Source of the DNA: a virus
Length of the DNA: 64,000 bases
Reading direction: 5' to 3' (one strand)
IMG/VR virus record: IMGVR_UViG_3300017991_000012
Coordinates: 1-64,000 of that record
Made by a program: the position numbers and the translations under genes. The notes under the pieces are model-generated. The model saw only the letters and a list, made by a program, of their open reading frames with translations, searched no databases and had not been told where the DNA came from. This document shows positions 2,689 to 25,774 of the stretch, piece after piece (position 1 is the stretch's first letter; every line of letters begins with the position of its first letter).

Positions 2689-3846
2689 TCATGCAGCTTG
2701 TGCGTTCGCGCAGCTGTCGCATTTCCTGCTTTCGCCCGTATGCTCGCCGCCGCAGATCGCGCAGTACTTCCGGCCCAGTTCCTTCGCCTGCTTCCTGCAG
2801 TCCTTGTCGCAGTGATCCTTGTGCCAGTTGTCCAGCTGCTTCCCGCACCACTGGCAGTATCGGATCGTCTCTCCCTTCTCCACATTATGCTTCTTCGGCC
2901 TGCTCTTCTCAACCTGTTTTTTCTCCACGGCCAGGACCTTCTTTGTCCGTCGTGCGCGGATGTCATCCATCGATGGCCATGTGTCCTTCACATTCACTGG
3001 CATGATCAGGTGCGACCACGGACCTTCCTTGATCCGCATCGGTGCGCCATCGGTCTTGATTTCCAGCACGGCCTCGACGTCGTAGATCTTCGATAGCGCT
3101 TCGCTCACGTACTTCCAGTTCAGCTTGACTGCCTTCGGTCTCGGCCTGCTCACCTCTGCCGTCAGGCCAATATCCACGTCCGTCTTCGGATCATCAGCGT
3201 CAAAGCTCGTGACGTACATCTTGCCCTTGTCGGCCTCGACGTTCACCGCATGCGTCTCGCTGCTGGCGATATTGCCCGCGACCTTCAGTGCCGCAATGGC
3301 CTCCTTCACCGCAAACTTGTAGCTGCCATCGTAGCTTTTCGGGACGATCGTCGTGTACCGTGGGAACTTGCCCTCTATGACGTCGATCATCTTCGGCTTG
3401 CCCTGATTGACTGTCACCGCTGCTCCGGTGCCGCTCACCTGTAGTTTGTGCTCGCACCTGCAGCTGTTGTCCGCTCCGCAGCTCTTGCACATGCCGTGCT
3501 CGTCCCAGCCTTCGTACTTTAGATGTTTCTCCATCTGTGCCAGGTCGGTGTCGATGTAGATCGCCACCATGTCGTCTTTCTTGACCTTGATCGACTTCAG
3601 CTGCTTGGCGTTACATACGACGTCCGCATGCGACACCTCGTCGCACTTGACGCTGTGCGGCTTGTGCACGGTGTACAGGCTCAGCCTGTGCGTGTCGGTC
3701 GCCACAAACTGCACCTTGCTCGGCGTGAGATGGATCAGAATACCCGCCAGCGGCCAACGACTTCTGCCCTTGCATGTCGCGAATTCGACTTTTTTTATCG
3801 CCTCCTTCCACACCTTTGCCTCCAACTCCACCATTGCCTTTGCCAT
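2689..3846 (-). CDS. DnaN-like sliding clamp with zinc-finger insertions
   Basis: A 385-residue protein resembling the bacterial beta clamp. FVATDTHRLSLY (residues 47-58) matches the clamp signature around THRL, and the segment VLEIKTDGAPMRIK leading to HLIMPV resembles the last clamp domain. Two additions are unusual. A Cys cluster (CKSC, then CRCEH, about residues 120-133) interrupts the first half. The last 56 residues hold two more CxxC-type modules (YCQWC with a distal HxxHCxxxC, and CAIC with CDSC). The ATG at 3846 has GGAGGAGG upstream; the frame is open further up but lacks a start signal there. Role: probably tethering a replication or repair enzyme to DNA. Confidence 0.75.
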   Translation of the reverse strand: MAKAMVELEAKVWKEAIKKVEFATCKGRSRWPLAGILIHLTPSKVQFVATDTHRLSLYTVHKPHSVKCDEVSHADVVCNAKQLKSIKVKKDDMVAIYIDTDLAQMEKHLKYEGWDEHGMCKSCGADNSCRCEHKLQVSGTGAAVTVNQGKPKMIDVIEGKFPRYTTIVPKSYDGSYKFAVKEAIAALKVAGNIASSETHAVNVEADKGKMYVTSFDADDPKTDVDIGLTAEVSRPRPKAVKLNWKYVSEALSKIYDVEAVLEIKTDGAPMRIKEGPWSHLIMPVNVKDTWPSMDDIRARRTKKVLAVEKKQVEKSRPKKHNVEKGETIRYCQWCGKQLDNWHKDHCDKDCRKQAKELGRKYCAICGGEHTGESRKCDSCANAQAA

Positions 3847-3866
3847 GATCAGTCCTCCGCCTCCTC

Positions 3867-4475
3867 CTAGAACAACGTCCCGTTCTCGACGTAGAAGCCC
3901 CGCTGCTTCCACGACCAATGCTCGACTTCCAATCCTGCTTTCTCGAATCTCGCGCCAAGATCCTGCCACCGATGGCAATCTGGTGGCTCGCTCTCGCTGC
4001 ACATGATCGCCACCACGCCCTTGTCGCACATCTTCCTCACCTTCAGCACTCCTTCGAGCCTCTGAACCTCCGTCCACTCGTGCAGCCCTCCAAGCACTTT
4101 CCCCATCCACACGTACTCGATCTCGCCCAGCTCGATCGCATCCATCAGCGCTGGCCTGTTGAATTCCGGACGCCATCGGCTGTAGGGCCTGCTCCTCACA
4201 TCCACCAAGACCTTCACCTTGAACCTTTGCAGAATCCCCACCAGCTCTGCAAGCGGACGATTCCCGTACCCGATCGTCAGAATCTGCATCGTCTTCGTCC
4301 TTTCCTCATCGACCTCGATGCTCTCCAGATACTCCTCCGCACTCTCTCGCTCTCCCGGCGAGATTTCACGCTTCACTCTCAGTCTCGGTCCGTTCGACTT
4401 GCCTTCTTGCCAGGCTTTCCTGGCATGCATCGCTCTCTGCCATGCTTCGTATGGAAGCTTTATCTCGGTAGGCAT
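3867..4475 (-). CDS. DUF488 family protein
   Basis: A 202-residue protein. From about residue 60 it carries the DUF488 hallmarks: the opening strand QILTIGYGNRP, the VDVRSRPYS loop, and late in the protein MCSESEPPDCHR with the Cys-His pair. The first 60 residues are a charged extension. The start at 4475 has GGGAGAGG upstream and lies about 25 nt after the predicted start site of promoter P1. DUF488 proteins are widespread in bacteria with an unsettled function; the conserved Cys/Arg hint at a nucleic-acid or redox role. Confidence 0.85.
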   Translation of the reverse strand: MPTEIKLPYEAWQRAMHARKAWQEGKSNGPRLRVKREISPGERESAEEYLESIEVDEERTKTMQILTIGYGNRPLAELVGILQRFKVKVLVDVRSRPYSRWRPEFNRPALMDAIELGEIEYVWMGKVLGGLHEWTEVQRLEGVLKVRKMCDKGVVAIMCSESEPPDCHRWQDLGARFEKAGLEVEHWSWKQRGFYVENGTLF

Positions 4476-4505
4476 CGCCTCTCCCTGTGGGTCCAAGACG
4501 TATTG

Positions 4506-4534
4506 AGTATACCCCACACGTCTCACTTTGTCAA
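4506..4534 (-). promoter_or_regulatory. Sigma-70 promoter P1
   Basis: CACTTGACA (box 4534-4529), 17-bp spacer, TATACT (4511-4506). Five bases after the -10 box comes CGTCTTGG, the start-site motif found at four other promoters here (as TGTCTTG). It drives the DUF488 gene and the clamp-like gene. Confidence 0.88.
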
Positions 4535-7876: not shown

Positions 7877-8647
7877 TTACGTCTCGGCTTCGACTTTCGC
7901 TTTCACCGTCTCGTAGTATTTCTTGACGATTTCGACCATCCTGACCAGGATAGCGCTGATCGACCGGATGTCGTCTACCTTCTTCACCGTCCGCATGATC
8001 TCCTTGAACTTCGCGAAGTGCTGATACTCTACCACGTCCACGGTCCTGGCATCGCGGCTGATCAGCTCCAGCACCTGATTGTAGTCCTCCATTTGGTTCT
8101 GCAGGAACGTCATGTTCAGAACCTCGAATTCGATCGGCAAGCAGATCTCCTCGCTCCTGACGTGGCTGAACTCGAAATTGAGATCTGCCAGCACGCCGGT
8201 CGCGATCTTCGCCTCCACATCCTTGATGCTGTCGTAGATCTCCTTCAGAATCTGCTGATCGTCCTCGCCGTTCAGCGCGTTGTGCGCCAGCTGCTTGCTC
8301 TTGATCTGGTCTTCAGTCAGCTCCTCTGGCAGCACCATCACGTACAGCTCCGTCACGTTCGCCATCCTCGCAGCCCTTACCCTGTGGTGGCCGCTGATGA
8401 TCGGAAATTGCAGATTGCCCGCCGGGTTCAGTTGCTTTGTGCATAGCGGCATGCTCTCCAGCCTATTGTCCGTTGCGATATTCGCCTGCAGTCTTTTGAA
8501 CCGCTCAGCGCTCATCACCCTCGCATTGCGCTCCTGCTCTCGCGTCAGGTCTACGTGCACTTTCCAGATCTCAATTCCTGTATCGAGCGTTATCGCCAAC
8601 TGCGGATCTGGCCTGTCAACCGGCTTGCTCGGTTTCTGCTCTGGCAT
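7877..8647 (-). CDS. ParB/Srx-like nuclease-fold protein
   Basis: A 256-residue protein with the ParB N-terminal signature IISGHHRVRAARM at residues 83-95, preceded by the usual segment in which target residues are listed, and an alpha-helical C-terminal half. The start at 8647 has GGAGAGGG upstream and lies inside the upstream gene (32-nt overlap). Proteins of this fold range from centromere binders and nucleases to nucleotide-binding modifying enzymes; many phages carry one beside terminase or DNA-modification genes, as here. It lacks a clear ParB helix-turn-helix, so a partition role is not supported. Confidence 0.82.
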   Translation of the reverse strand: MPEQKPSKPVDRPDPQLAITLDTGIEIWKVHVDLTREQERNARVMSAERFKRLQANIATDNRLESMPLCTKQLNPAGNLQFPIISGHHRVRAARMANVTELYVMVLPEELTEDQIKSKQLAHNALNGEDDQQILKEIYDSIKDVEAKIATGVLADLNFEFSHVRSEEICLPIEFEVLNMTFLQNQMEDYNQVLELISRDARTVDVVEYQHFAKFKEIMRTVKKVDDIRSISAILVRMVEIVKKYYETVKAKVEAET

Positions 8648-10064
8648 TTTCCCTCTCCTGAAGCTCTCGCAGGAACAGCTGCACGCAGTCCGCATACGTC
8701 CTGTCGTAGAACTTGCACTCGTACATGATTTTGTACAGCCCGTTTTTCATCTTCTCGCGCTTGACCACGTCAAGCAGCCCGTTGTTCAGCTTCACCTTCC
8801 TGTACCTGCTCAGGCACGTCGTCCTGAAGCCCTGGATCTCGAAAATCCTGTTCGTCTTCAGCGCGTGCCGCATGATCTGACCTTTCAGGAACTCCTGGCA
8901 CGTTATGGCCATCATCAACAGCCGGTTCGCCGTCGGGTACTTCTTCATCGGCGCATTAAACCCATAGGTCTCGAACACGTACTCGCTTCCTTCCTCCATG
9001 CGGCGGAGGTGGCCTGTGTGCAAGCCAACGATTCCGAAGATCTGTCCGTCTATGAGCATCACGAAATAATGCTCTGCCAACGTCGCGCCCAGCTTGTGCG
9101 CCCACAGATCGCGGTAGTAGCTCGCAACGTTGTGGTCCACACCTTTGCCGATGAAACTCACCTTGCTGTCTGGCCGAATCTCGTAATCCTCCGAGATGAT
9201 CGGAAGTGGCAGTCTTTCGCTTTCCTTCCACGGCCTCTGCCATGCGATCCCGTCGAATTCCGGTGCGTCCTTCAGCACCTCCGGCTTGGTTATCATGCAG
9301 TAGCTGTAGCTCACCGGGCTGAACTGCAGGCCCCAGAACAAATCCTCTTCTGGCAGATCGTCCTTCAGGTTGTACCTCGCCCATATGTACGTCGCCGGAC
9401 TTTTCTTGCTCTCCAAGTATAGATTCCCGAACTCGTCGTCGAAATCCATCTCCGGCGCCGTGAAGCCCCACGTCAGCTCCGGCTCGAAGTCGAACATCTT
9501 GGTATAGCCTTTGCGATACGCAGGCGGATGTACCAGCACCAGCGTTCGTTCGTCGTACTCGGCCCTCACCACATCGCGGATGTCCGCCATCTCGTACTTC
9601 ATCCCGCCAAGTTTTTCCTTCTGTTCCTCAAGTTGCGTGCATAGGCTCGCCAGGCACATATCTCGCTTGTCTATAAAATACTGCCTGTACTGGGTGAGGT
9701 ACATCTTGTTTGATTTCAGTTGACGCACGCGCATCAGCCATAGCAGGTAGGCTGCTTTTGCTACTTCTCGCTTGAATTTCCTGTATGCTAACTCGTGCTC
9801 TTCGTCCAGCTTGATCGGAAGCTCGTCGATCGGCCTTCCTGCGTACCAGCACCCAAGCACGGCACTGAACACGCTGATGTCGCTGCACTCCGCCTGCTTC
9901 GGATCAAAGCCCGCCGCGATCGCACCTCGTACCAGACAGAACTGTCCCGCGCATGGCACAATCAACCTGTCGTACCTATGCTTGATCTTCGCCATCAGCG
10001 ACGTAAGCATATCTCGCTCAGGCTGAGGATTCACACCCTGGAATATCTTGCCCATCGGATTCAT
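8616..10064 (-). CDS. Methyltransferase-like protein, possible DNA modification or antirestriction enzyme
   Basis: A 482-residue two-part protein. Residues 30-60 (RLIVPCAGQF through AGFDPKQ) look like the SAM-binding motif of adenine methyltransferases, and VHPPAYRKGY (178-187) sits where the DPPY motif would be, with His replacing Asp. The C-terminal half (about 320-400) has HYFVMLIDGQIFGIVGLH, compatible with an acetyltransferase (GNAT) strand-loop-strand as in Mom-type proteins; that link is my inference. The ATG at 10064 has no Shine-Dalgarno site and is 6 nt from the tRNA 3' end. It is followed by the ParB-like gene. Confidence 0.65.
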   Translation of the reverse strand: MNPMGKIFQGVNPQPERDMLTSLMAKIKHRYDRLIVPCAGQFCLVRGAIAAGFDPKQAECSDISVFSAVLGCWYAGRPIDELPIKLDEEHELAYRKFKREVAKAAYLLWLMRVRQLKSNKMYLTQYRQYFIDKRDMCLASLCTQLEEQKEKLGGMKYEMADIRDVVRAEYDERTLVLVHPPAYRKGYTKMFDFEPELTWGFTAPEMDFDDEFGNLYLESKKSPATYIWARYNLKDDLPEEDLFWGLQFSPVSYSYCMITKPEVLKDAPEFDGIAWQRPWKESERLPLPIISEDYEIRPDSKVSFIGKGVDHNVASYYRDLWAHKLGATLAEHYFVMLIDGQIFGIVGLHTGHLRRMEEGSEYVFETYGFNAPMKKYPTANRLLMMAITCQEFLKGQIMRHALKTNRIFEIQGFRTTCLSRYRKVKLNNGLLDVVKREKMKNGLYKIMYECKFYDRTYADCVQLFLRELQERENARAETEQAG

Positions 10065-23711: not shown

Positions 23712-24055
23712 GTGCCCAACTCTGTTTTCCACTCAAAAATCGTAGAAATCGGAATCTTGATCCCGTGCACGCGCTCCATCTCGATCGCAGTCTGCTCCAG
23801 TGTCCTGCTTTCCAGCATCCGTAGTGCCTCGTCCATCACCCGATCCATATATCTTGCGCTGTCACGTGCGCCCGGCACTCCGGCATTGAAGTACTTGCGA
23901 CACAGCCTGCAGTAGTGCTTGCTGTATCTAACCCTCCATGTTGTGTGCTGCAGGTCTTTCAGCGTGCGTCTGCCAACGCTGTGTTTTTTGCATGATGCCC
24001 CACATCTCGGACAGTCCGCGTACTTCTTCACCGCGTCGTGTTCTTTTATCTTCAT
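23708..24055 (-). CDS. Zinc-ribbon plus HTH protein resembling a transposase N-terminus
   Basis: A 115-residue protein. CPRCGASCKKHSVGRR and a second pair in HYCRLCRKYF form a zinc ribbon of the kind seen at the N-terminus of ISL3-like and related transposases. The rest (TLEQTAIEMERVHG, then IPISTIFEWK) is a helix-turn-helix. There is no catalytic domain, so it is probably a free-standing DNA-binding regulator. Its stop codon overlaps the -35 box of promoter P3, which makes auto- or local control plausible. Confidence 0.75.
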   Translation of the reverse strand: MKIKEHDAVKKYADCPRCGASCKKHSVGRRTLKDLQHTTWRVRYSKHYCRLCRKYFNAGVPGARDSARYMDRVMDEALRMLESRTLEQTAIEMERVHGIKIPISTIFEWKTELGT

Positions 24056-25020
24056 CAGCAGACCTTCTTCAGCTGGTTCTCCTCGGCGTACTTCACAAGT
24101 TGTGCAATCGCTTCTTCCTTGGTGTCGACAGGCGGCATGGCCGCCTTGTCGTACAGCTCATTTCCTGCGTTCTCACCCTTGCTTGTGTAACTGCAGAACT
24201 TGCTCCCAGTCTGACCATCGCTGACAAAGATCTGCCGGCCAAGTCCGTCCTCGTAGACCGGCCCTCGATCCTCACCGGAAGCGTTGGGAAGCTCTGTCTT
24301 ATCTCCATCTTGATCGCCTCCAGTATCTTCATCATCGGATGCACTGGCATCGCCGCTCTCGTCCACCTGCTCGCCCTCCTCGTTCTCCTTGAAGGGCAGC
24401 TCCTTCTGGCGATCGGCATCAGTGAACGGCCTGCTGCTGATAATCTCGCCCGTGTCAAGGCGCACCTGCTGCACTTCTTCCGCTTCCCAGTTCTTCCTCT
24501 CTTCCACGTCGACATACTTCAGCACCTTTCCGATCTGAATCTCATTGTCGATCTTCTCGCGCCTGGCCATGAGTGCGCTGATCTCGGCCTCCAACGTCTT
24601 CTTCTCGGCCTTCAGCTGATCCTCGACCACTTTCAGATGCTCGGTCTTCTCACGCATCTCGGCCGTCAGCCCAGCGGCTTCCATCGCCTTCTCCCTGACC
24701 TCGGCATCCGTCATGTCGAACCGGAACTGGCGCCTGTTCTTGCCCAGGACTTCAACCTTCAACTTCGCGCAAGCGCAAGGGCTGGTGCTACATACGCCGC
24801 AGACAACGCATTTGCAGAAGCTGATTCCATTACCGCAGCCCACGCAGACCTCTTCATCTCCGCTCGCTTCTCCTTCTGCTTCTGCCGCTCCTTCTTCAGC
24901 CGCTTCTTCCTGTGTTTGCTGTTCACGATCATGCTCCTCTGCCATCTCCGCTTTTGCTCGCTCGTCCTCTGCGGCCAGCGCATCTGCCTTTGCCGCGGCC
25001 TGTTCCTGTTCTTCGTTCAT
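24055..25020 (-). CDS. Acidic Cys-rich coiled-coil protein (321 aa)
   Basis: From the ATG at 25020 (MNEEQEQAAAK, GGAGGGAGAGCTG upstream): an Ala/Glu-rich acidic N-terminus (1-60), a Cys cluster with CVGCGNG and CKCVVCGVC (about 60-85), a coiled coil (VVEDQLKAEKKTLEAE) in the middle and a Glu/Asp-rich C-terminal half with a DRGPVYEDGLGRQIFV segment. It may be a scaffold or ssDNA-associated protein, but I recognise no family. Confidence 0.74.
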   Translation of the reverse strand: MNEEQEQAAAKADALAAEDERAKAEMAEEHDREQQTQEEAAEEGAAEAEGEASGDEEVCVGCGNGISFCKCVVCGVCSTSPCACAKLKVEVLGKNRRQFRFDMTDAEVREKAMEAAGLTAEMREKTEHLKVVEDQLKAEKKTLEAEISALMARREKIDNEIQIGKVLKYVDVEERKNWEAEEVQQVRLDTGEIISSRPFTDADRQKELPFKENEEGEQVDESGDASASDDEDTGGDQDGDKTELPNASGEDRGPVYEDGLGRQIFVSDGQTGSKFCSYTSKGENAGNELYDKAAMPPVDTKEEAIAQLVKYAEENQLKKVC

Positions 25021-25056
25021 CAGCTCTCCCTCCAAGATCAAAAGCAACCTGGTCCT

Positions 25057-25153: not shown

Positions 25154-25774
25154 TCAGTCTCCAAACAGATACCCGAACATCTTGCAGTCCTTCTGTACCC
25201 ACGGCCACAGTGCTTCGAATATCTCGGCGTCGTAATACTCACGGTACGGACGCACGTTTCCAAGATCGTCCCTGCGGCTTGCGCTGACATTCAGGCACGG
25301 CAGCTGCGGCAGATTGTCCAGCTCCATCAGCCTGTACCAGCCGTCGCGCAGATCCTCGAACTTCAACACCGTGTCCATGATCAGCTTGCCGTCGTTATCG
25401 CACAGCCAGCGCCATTGCTGGAACCAGAACAGCATCCACGGCTTGCCATGCCTGATCTCGCCGACGCATTCGCAGCTGACAAAGATCTTCCAGATCCAGT
25501 CGCGGAAGCTCAGGTCCTCATCGCGATCGCGCTTGATACTTCCGTCCTTGGCCTCGTGCTGCCAGGTGTACAAGCTCACGATCCGGTCCCATGGGTTCCT
25601 GACTACAGCCAGCTTCTTGTAGCCGGCCCAGCGTACGGGATCGGCCTTCTGCAGCTCAAGTGCCGTATAGTGCCATTCGGCATGGCCCATCGGCCAGAGC
25701 GCCTTGCAGATACTGAAGCCCGCGCACTTGGGAATGTGCACATGCGCTATGCGGTACTGGTCGCTGAAGCCCAT
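25154..25774 (-). CDS. Sulfotransferase-family protein
   Basis: A 206-residue protein with the two PAPS-binding motifs of sulfotransferases: HIPKCAGFSI (residues 13-22, phosphosulfate loop) and VVRNPWDRIVSLY (57-69, 3'-phosphate binding). The middle is Trp-rich (WLCDND, FWFQQWRW), and KFEDLRDGWYRLMELD resembles the later conserved helix. The substrate is unknown; it could be a glycan, a small molecule or a protein Tyr. GAGGAGGTAGACTG precedes the ATG at 25774. It lies among early genes, unlike the surface-sugar genes at the right end. Confidence 0.82.
   Translation of the reverse strand: MGFSDQYRIAHVHIPKCAGFSICKALWPMGHAEWHYTALELQKADPVRWAGYKKLAVVRNPWDRIVSLYTWQHEAKDGSIKRDRDEDLSFRDWIWKIFVSCECVGEIRHGKPWMLFWFQQWRWLCDNDGKLIMDTVLKFEDLRDGWYRLMELDNLPQLPCLNVSASRRDDLGNVRPYREYYDAEIFEALWPWVQKDCKMFGYLFGD

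Follow-up and report, generated by a model that had tools for sequence, protein, structure and literature searches.

The clamp locus and its phage genome

The gene described here lies on the minus strand of a virus contig of 80,107 bp (IMG/VR record IMGVR_UViG_3300017991_000012), the first 64,000 nucleotides of which form the window to which our coordinates refer. Bases 1–123 of the record are identical with bases 79985–80107, and as such an identity of the two ends is the usual sign of completeness, we take the record to be a complete phage genome of ~80 kb. It encodes terminase, portal, head, tape-measure and LamG tail proteins, together with a DnaC-like helicase loader and a PD-(D/E)XK nuclease.

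The gene encodes a homologue of the bacterial sliding clamp DnaN, and its coding statistics resemble those of other phage genes; the features of the locus and of the encoded protein are collected in Table 1. A longer open reading frame, extending to position 4176, was considered and rejected, as the 110 residues that it would add lie, in a different frame, over the DUF488 gene and bring no match with domain I of DnaN. Because a promoter-like site precedes the DUF488 gene and a strong terminator-like hairpin follows right after the clamp stop, both recognized as consensus matches, these two genes are probably co-transcribed as one short unit ahead of the terminase region.

Elsewhere in the window, a ParB-like protein adjoins a DAM-like-phage1 and GNAT-phage-like fusion (7877–10064, minus strand), the two being possibly a DNA base-modification pair. 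A sulfotransferase-family gene is found at 25154–25774 (minus strand), and a protein of 330 amino acids encoded at 24055–25047 (minus strand) carries eight cysteines at residues 68–93 and has no family match.

Table 1. Position and basis of each feature at the clamp locus (window coordinates; residues are those of the clamp protein)
Feature	Position	Strand	Basis
Terminator-like hairpin, 14 bp stem and T tract, just past the clamp stop	2633–2667	−	Consensus scan
Clamp homologue gene, 385 amino acids	2689–3846	−	ATG at 3846, stop at 2689; PF02767, PHROG 947, AlphaFold, Foldseek
Tail Cys4 module 2, C-x2-C-x10-C-x2-C, residues 362–379	2710–2763	−	Same Javan616 match as module 1, cysteines aligned
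Tail Cys4 module 1, C-x2-C-x11-C-x3-C, residues 331–350	2797–2856	−	Aligns to N-terminal finger of Javan616 HNH protein
C-terminal linker with basic helix, residues 288–328	2863–2985	−	Helix 293–315, pLDDT ~80–90; net charge +5
DnaN domain III equivalent, complete, residues 171–287	2986–3336	−	7rzm domain III (155–284), PHROG 947, own HMM, strands/helices 174–281
DnaN domain II equivalent including insert, residues 1–170	3337–3846	−	PF02767 at 8–101; AlphaFold strands/helices 4–154
Insert in β6–β7 hairpin of domain II, residues 100–140	3427–3549	−	Absent from 67 aligned relatives
C-x2-C-x5-C-x-C cluster in insert, residues 120–131	3454–3489	−	Sequence; zinc binding putative
VATDTHRLS motif, part of clamp-binding pocket, residues 48–56	3679–3705	−	Aligns to E. 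coli 170–178
Ribosome-binding purine tract AGGAGGAGGCGGAGGA before ATG at 3846	3853–3868	−	Sequence
DUF488 gene, directly upstream of the clamp gene	3867–4526	−	PF04343, E = 3.6e-15; likely start ATG at 4475
Promoter-like site TTGACA-17-TATACT, 11/12, before DUF488	4506–4534	−	Consensus scan, not proof of function

Homology with DnaN and two-domain architecture

Clamps occur as three-domain dimers in bacteria and as two-domain trimers in archaea, eukaryotes and T4, and their ancestral state is open (PMC8357120). In the phage protein, the Pfam family DNA_pol3_beta_2 (PF02767), which represents the central domain of DnaN, was matched at residues 8–101 with an E-value of 7.6e-10 (39.5 bits against a cut-off of 27), and PHROG 947, ‘DNA polymerase processivity factor’, was matched with an E-value of 3e-20 across domains II and III, to position 366/368. 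Solved DnaN structures were matched down to E = 1e-10, and every sequence match in the solved-structure search was a DnaN. Domain III is divergent in that the PF02768 profile was not reached, and our own HMM for this domain matched residues 134–286 with an E-value of 1e-15. The AlphaFold model, for which we supplied a 68-sequence alignment built from fetched loci (a single-sequence prediction gave a pLDDT of 34), has a core pLDDT of ~90 and two complete clamp domains in the arrangement (β-α-β3)×2, and Foldseek overlays it on DnaN chains with E-values of ~1e-17. The original prediction had read a β-clamp-like core with a THRLS signature from the sequence and had called for clamp domains in the predicted monomer; these data clearly confirm the former, the signature lying within the VATDTHRLS motif, and show the latter to be present in the model.

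Domain I (PF00712) gave no match in the clamp protein, nor did a search of the full 80-kb record, with positive controls, yield one at E ≤ 10, and when aligned with DnaN of E. coli the protein sets in at the start of domain II. The protein is thus a DnaN homologue with domains II and III only, and the picture of a standard clamp plus decorations has to be given up, the loss of domain I being a point that the first reading had overlooked. With bacterial DnaN (E. coli, PF00712 + PF02767 + PF02768) it shares the domain II/III fold, the VATD-HRL motif, the peptide pocket and its descent, whereas it lacks domain I, has changed residues at the dimer interface of domain III, and adds a cysteine-containing hairpin insert and a tail of ~98 residues with two Cys4 modules. 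The trimeric clamps PCNA and T4 gp45 likewise have two complete clamp domains per chain, an arrangement that would give a trimer; however, the phage sequence is DnaN-like and not PCNA- or gp45-like, and its trimer is one that we infer.

One domain could also be missing because the DnaN gene is non-functional, through decay or mis-assembly, and 7 of the 25 columns conserved at 85% or more among relatives differ in the phage protein. Yet the frame is intact and is accompanied by a ribosome site and phage-like coding statistics, no remnant of domain I is left in the record, the pocket is preserved, modules have been added and the protein starts exactly at the domain boundary, making decay so improbable as to be nearly negligible. 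Together with the ribosome site, this precise start at the domain II boundary was counted in favour of a two-domain clamp.

Pocket, dimer interface and relatives

A review (PMC11139829) lists which positions of E. coli DnaN form the pocket and which the interface. The peptide-binding pocket is situated between the two domains. At its positions conserved at 80% or more in relatives, the phage protein is identical in ten out of 11 and carries a V247I exchange in the remaining one, and the pocket residue M362 is likewise kept. To the interface positions we added R269 and positions 300, 301 and 303, with the help of the conservation table. All three of the domain III dimer-interface positions conserved at 80% or more are changed, namely R269V, a deletion at 300 and E304T, the alignment at 304 being ambiguous (E304T/V); relatives carry R at 269 in 93% and E at 304 in 93%, where the phage clamp has V and T. 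In addition, the hydrophobic interface residue I272 is replaced by N. Without domain I, and with the corresponding residues of domain III exchanged, the chain cannot form a DnaN-type dimer interface, and since both domain I and this interface were looked for and neither was found, the protein is not a member of the three-domain dimeric clamps. Interface residues also drift in viral three-domain clamps, among which R269 is present in 56 of 72 and an acidic residue at 304 in 53 of 72, with I272 not conserved, and their loss is therefore only moderate evidence; the contrast between a kept pocket and a lost interface is, at the level of aligned residues, suggestive but not proof. With regard to the ring interface, by which the original prediction would stand or fall, the outcome is divided, in that the DnaN dimer interface is gone and a trimer via a II–III′ contact is possible and is the best reading.

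The phage chain might instead enter a mixed ring with host β subunits and so supplement the host clamp, as it belongs to the same fold family and host machinery is needed. This we regard as very unlikely, given that the domain III contacts for host domain I are lost and that two plus three domains do not make a six-domain ring with two subunits.

Relatives from genome contigs were mostly from Armatimonadota and Bacillota, and those uncut by a contig end had a three-domain N-terminal length in 74 out of 74 cases among the matches listed. For viruses, we sampled open reading frames, uncut by contig ends, that contain the exact motif VATD(G/T/S)HRL, or the same with I at the first place. These viral frames, at least 109, fell into two groups, i.e. 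at least 83 that include domain I and have domain III in full, and at least 26 mini-clamps of ~180–237 residues consisting of domain II and the second half of domain III only (1.5 domains); three-domain relatives in the sample numbered at least 157. A profile check confirmed both groups and added two reduced proteins, L247 and L248. No other complete II + III form without domain I was found among the matches listed, and no close relatives were found in viral contigs searched by clamp, terminase and major head protein, leaving one sequence only. We had considered that lack of domain I might set this DnaN apart entirely and rejected this, as viral contigs commonly encode reduced clamps devoid of it, albeit in the 1.5-domain form.

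Such mini-clamps (PHROG 3007), as in Shigella phage EP23 and Burkholderia phage Bcep781, resemble the phage clamp in lacking domain I and keeping the pocket, but they are also without the first half of domain III, which is complete in the phage clamp, and without such cysteine modules; the PHROG 3007 profile reached the phage clamp with an E-value of only 0.0028. They are frequent in viral contigs, with loci that include L141:9330–9866 (minus strand), L138:2008–2691 (minus strand), L157 and L187. In annotated Enterobacteria and Burkholderia phages they are named either ‘DNA polymerase III beta subunit’ or ‘RusA-like Holliday junction resolvase’, and because the same mini-clamp proteins bear either name, the latter is probably a mis-annotation. 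L247 (2490–3134, plus strand) and L248 represent a second reduced form, likewise of 1.5 domains, in which the first half of domain II is joined to a full domain III, and by eye L247 sits just before DnaD-like and DnaC-like genes. One idea is that chains of three, four or six half-domains might form rings of four, three or two chains, with 12 half-domains in each.

The mini-clamps indicate that preservation of the pocket need not go with an obvious ring, which counts against a ring-forming phage clamp and bears on the main rival explanation. According to this, the phage protein would be a non-ring, monomeric clamp remnant whose pocket captures host proteins with clamp-binding motifs (such as polymerases, the loader and Hda), either blocking host replication or bringing these proteins to phage DNA via the zinc tail. 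That the pocket is the best-kept part of the protein and the dimer interface is not kept would fit such a role, and pocket-keeping proteins of this kind are common in phages, as counted above. However, domain III is whole and structured, including a first half that a pocket does not need, and the channel-facing helices are net basic, so that we consider this explanation possible but doubtful.

Cysteine modules and a proposed trimeric ring

The cysteines of the hairpin insert are at residues 120, 123, 129 and 131, in a region of low model confidence (pLDDT mostly 39–66 across the insert) flanked by strands at 93–99 and 141–146, and no homologue of this insert was found. Those of the tail are at 331/334/346/350 and 362/365/376/379. 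The protein has four CxxC motifs, a number attained only 19 times when its residues were shuffled 20,000 times, and the extra modules are present in none of the 67 aligned relatives, in agreement with the earlier description of them as additions to the clamp. Both the cluster in the core and the two C-terminal modules are thus present as first described, and all of them probably bind zinc.

The tail alone matches an HNH endonuclease of Streptococcus phage Javan616 (E = 3e-4, 39% identity over 57 residues) with all eight cysteines aligned, and its tandem Cys4 modules share CGK and the C-x3-C spacing with the zinc array of that enzyme. The Javan616 protein carries HNH_3 and further fingers, whereas the phage clamp has no HNH nuclease domain and has the array joined to a clamp. 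No match of the tail was found in plasmids, and none of significance in solved structures. Because of the match with this array, DNA contact is the likeliest role of the tail, and the suggestion that the modules recruit DNA or partners is supported, for the tail, by this homology. By clamp topology, the C-terminus and the β6–β7 turn would both lie on the face that binds polymerase and loader.

No DNA polymerase of families A, B or C was detected in the whole 80,107-bp record, with positive controls, extending to the full genome what had been stated for the window, and no δ′-type clamp-loader subunit was detected in it, again with positive controls. Any activity of the clamp must therefore depend on enzymes of the host or on a component that escaped recognition, and the presence of a helicase loader together with the absence of these polymerase and loader families was counted for a clamp that uses host machinery. 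A clamp acting mainly outside replication has also to be weighed, e.g. one coupling late transcription (as T4 gp45) or DNA packaging to replication with its zinc arms as an adaptor; in its favour, the gene directly precedes the terminase region, behind a promoter-like site of its own with the DUF488 gene. However, the scanned phage genes yielded neither a sigma factor nor a co-activator family, and phage proteins, with terminase among them, match the clamp-binding motif three times, which by our own estimate is about as often as chance would give, making this role unlikely.

A clamp ring consists of six domains, provided by two chains of three or three chains of two. As the phage clamp has two domains per chain, its ring, if it closes, would be a trimer. 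Compared with relatives, domain II has a five-residue deletion in its second helix (helix B), and this deletion and the hairpin insert would, by clamp topology rather than from coordinates, both lie on the edge that meets domain III of the neighbour; the alteration of domain II at this would-be new contact was counted for a trimeric ring. In E. coli, the short UV-induced DnaN product β*, the C-terminal two thirds of the protein, was reportedly found by Skaliter and Livneh in 1996 to be a trimer. β* consists essentially of DnaN domains II and III, as does the phage clamp, but it is an internal product of dnaN, whereas the phage clamp has a dedicated gene and cysteine modules. A literature search in an open library found nothing on a two-domain DnaN, on zinc modules in clamps or on β*.

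Taken together, the phage protein most likely works like a two-domain clamp. Our best explanation, for which we see the chances as evenly balanced, is a phage processivity clamp that descends from DnaN but no longer has domain I, works with the polymerase of the host and forms a PCNA-like trimer with DNA-touching zinc arms on its partner face. Three subunits would join head to tail, domain III of each to domain II of the next, and so encircle DNA with six domains, in the manner of PCNA and T4 gp45; the kept pocket would serve as docking site for the clamp loader and DNA polymerase III of the host, or for a phage partner. The cysteine modules, leaving from the partner-binding face, would bind zinc, touch DNA or a phage protein and so tie the ring to phage DNA, and the clamp and the phage DnaC-like helicase loader would turn the host replication machine to the phage genome. 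A more specific proposal, which we put forward tentatively and with more doubt than belief, is that the loss of domain I turned DnaN into a PCNA-like trimer in one step, a remodelled edge of domain II making up for it, and that the partner face carries nine zinc modules per ring, three from each subunit, which would hold phage DNA or a phage protein.

A naturally occurring DnaN that comprises just domains II and III and has a gene of its own would make the conversion between dimer and trimer directly testable in the laboratory. If the ring reading is true, a phage without a polymerase of its own can still own a clamp, and a sliding ring can be fitted with zinc modules that bind DNA.
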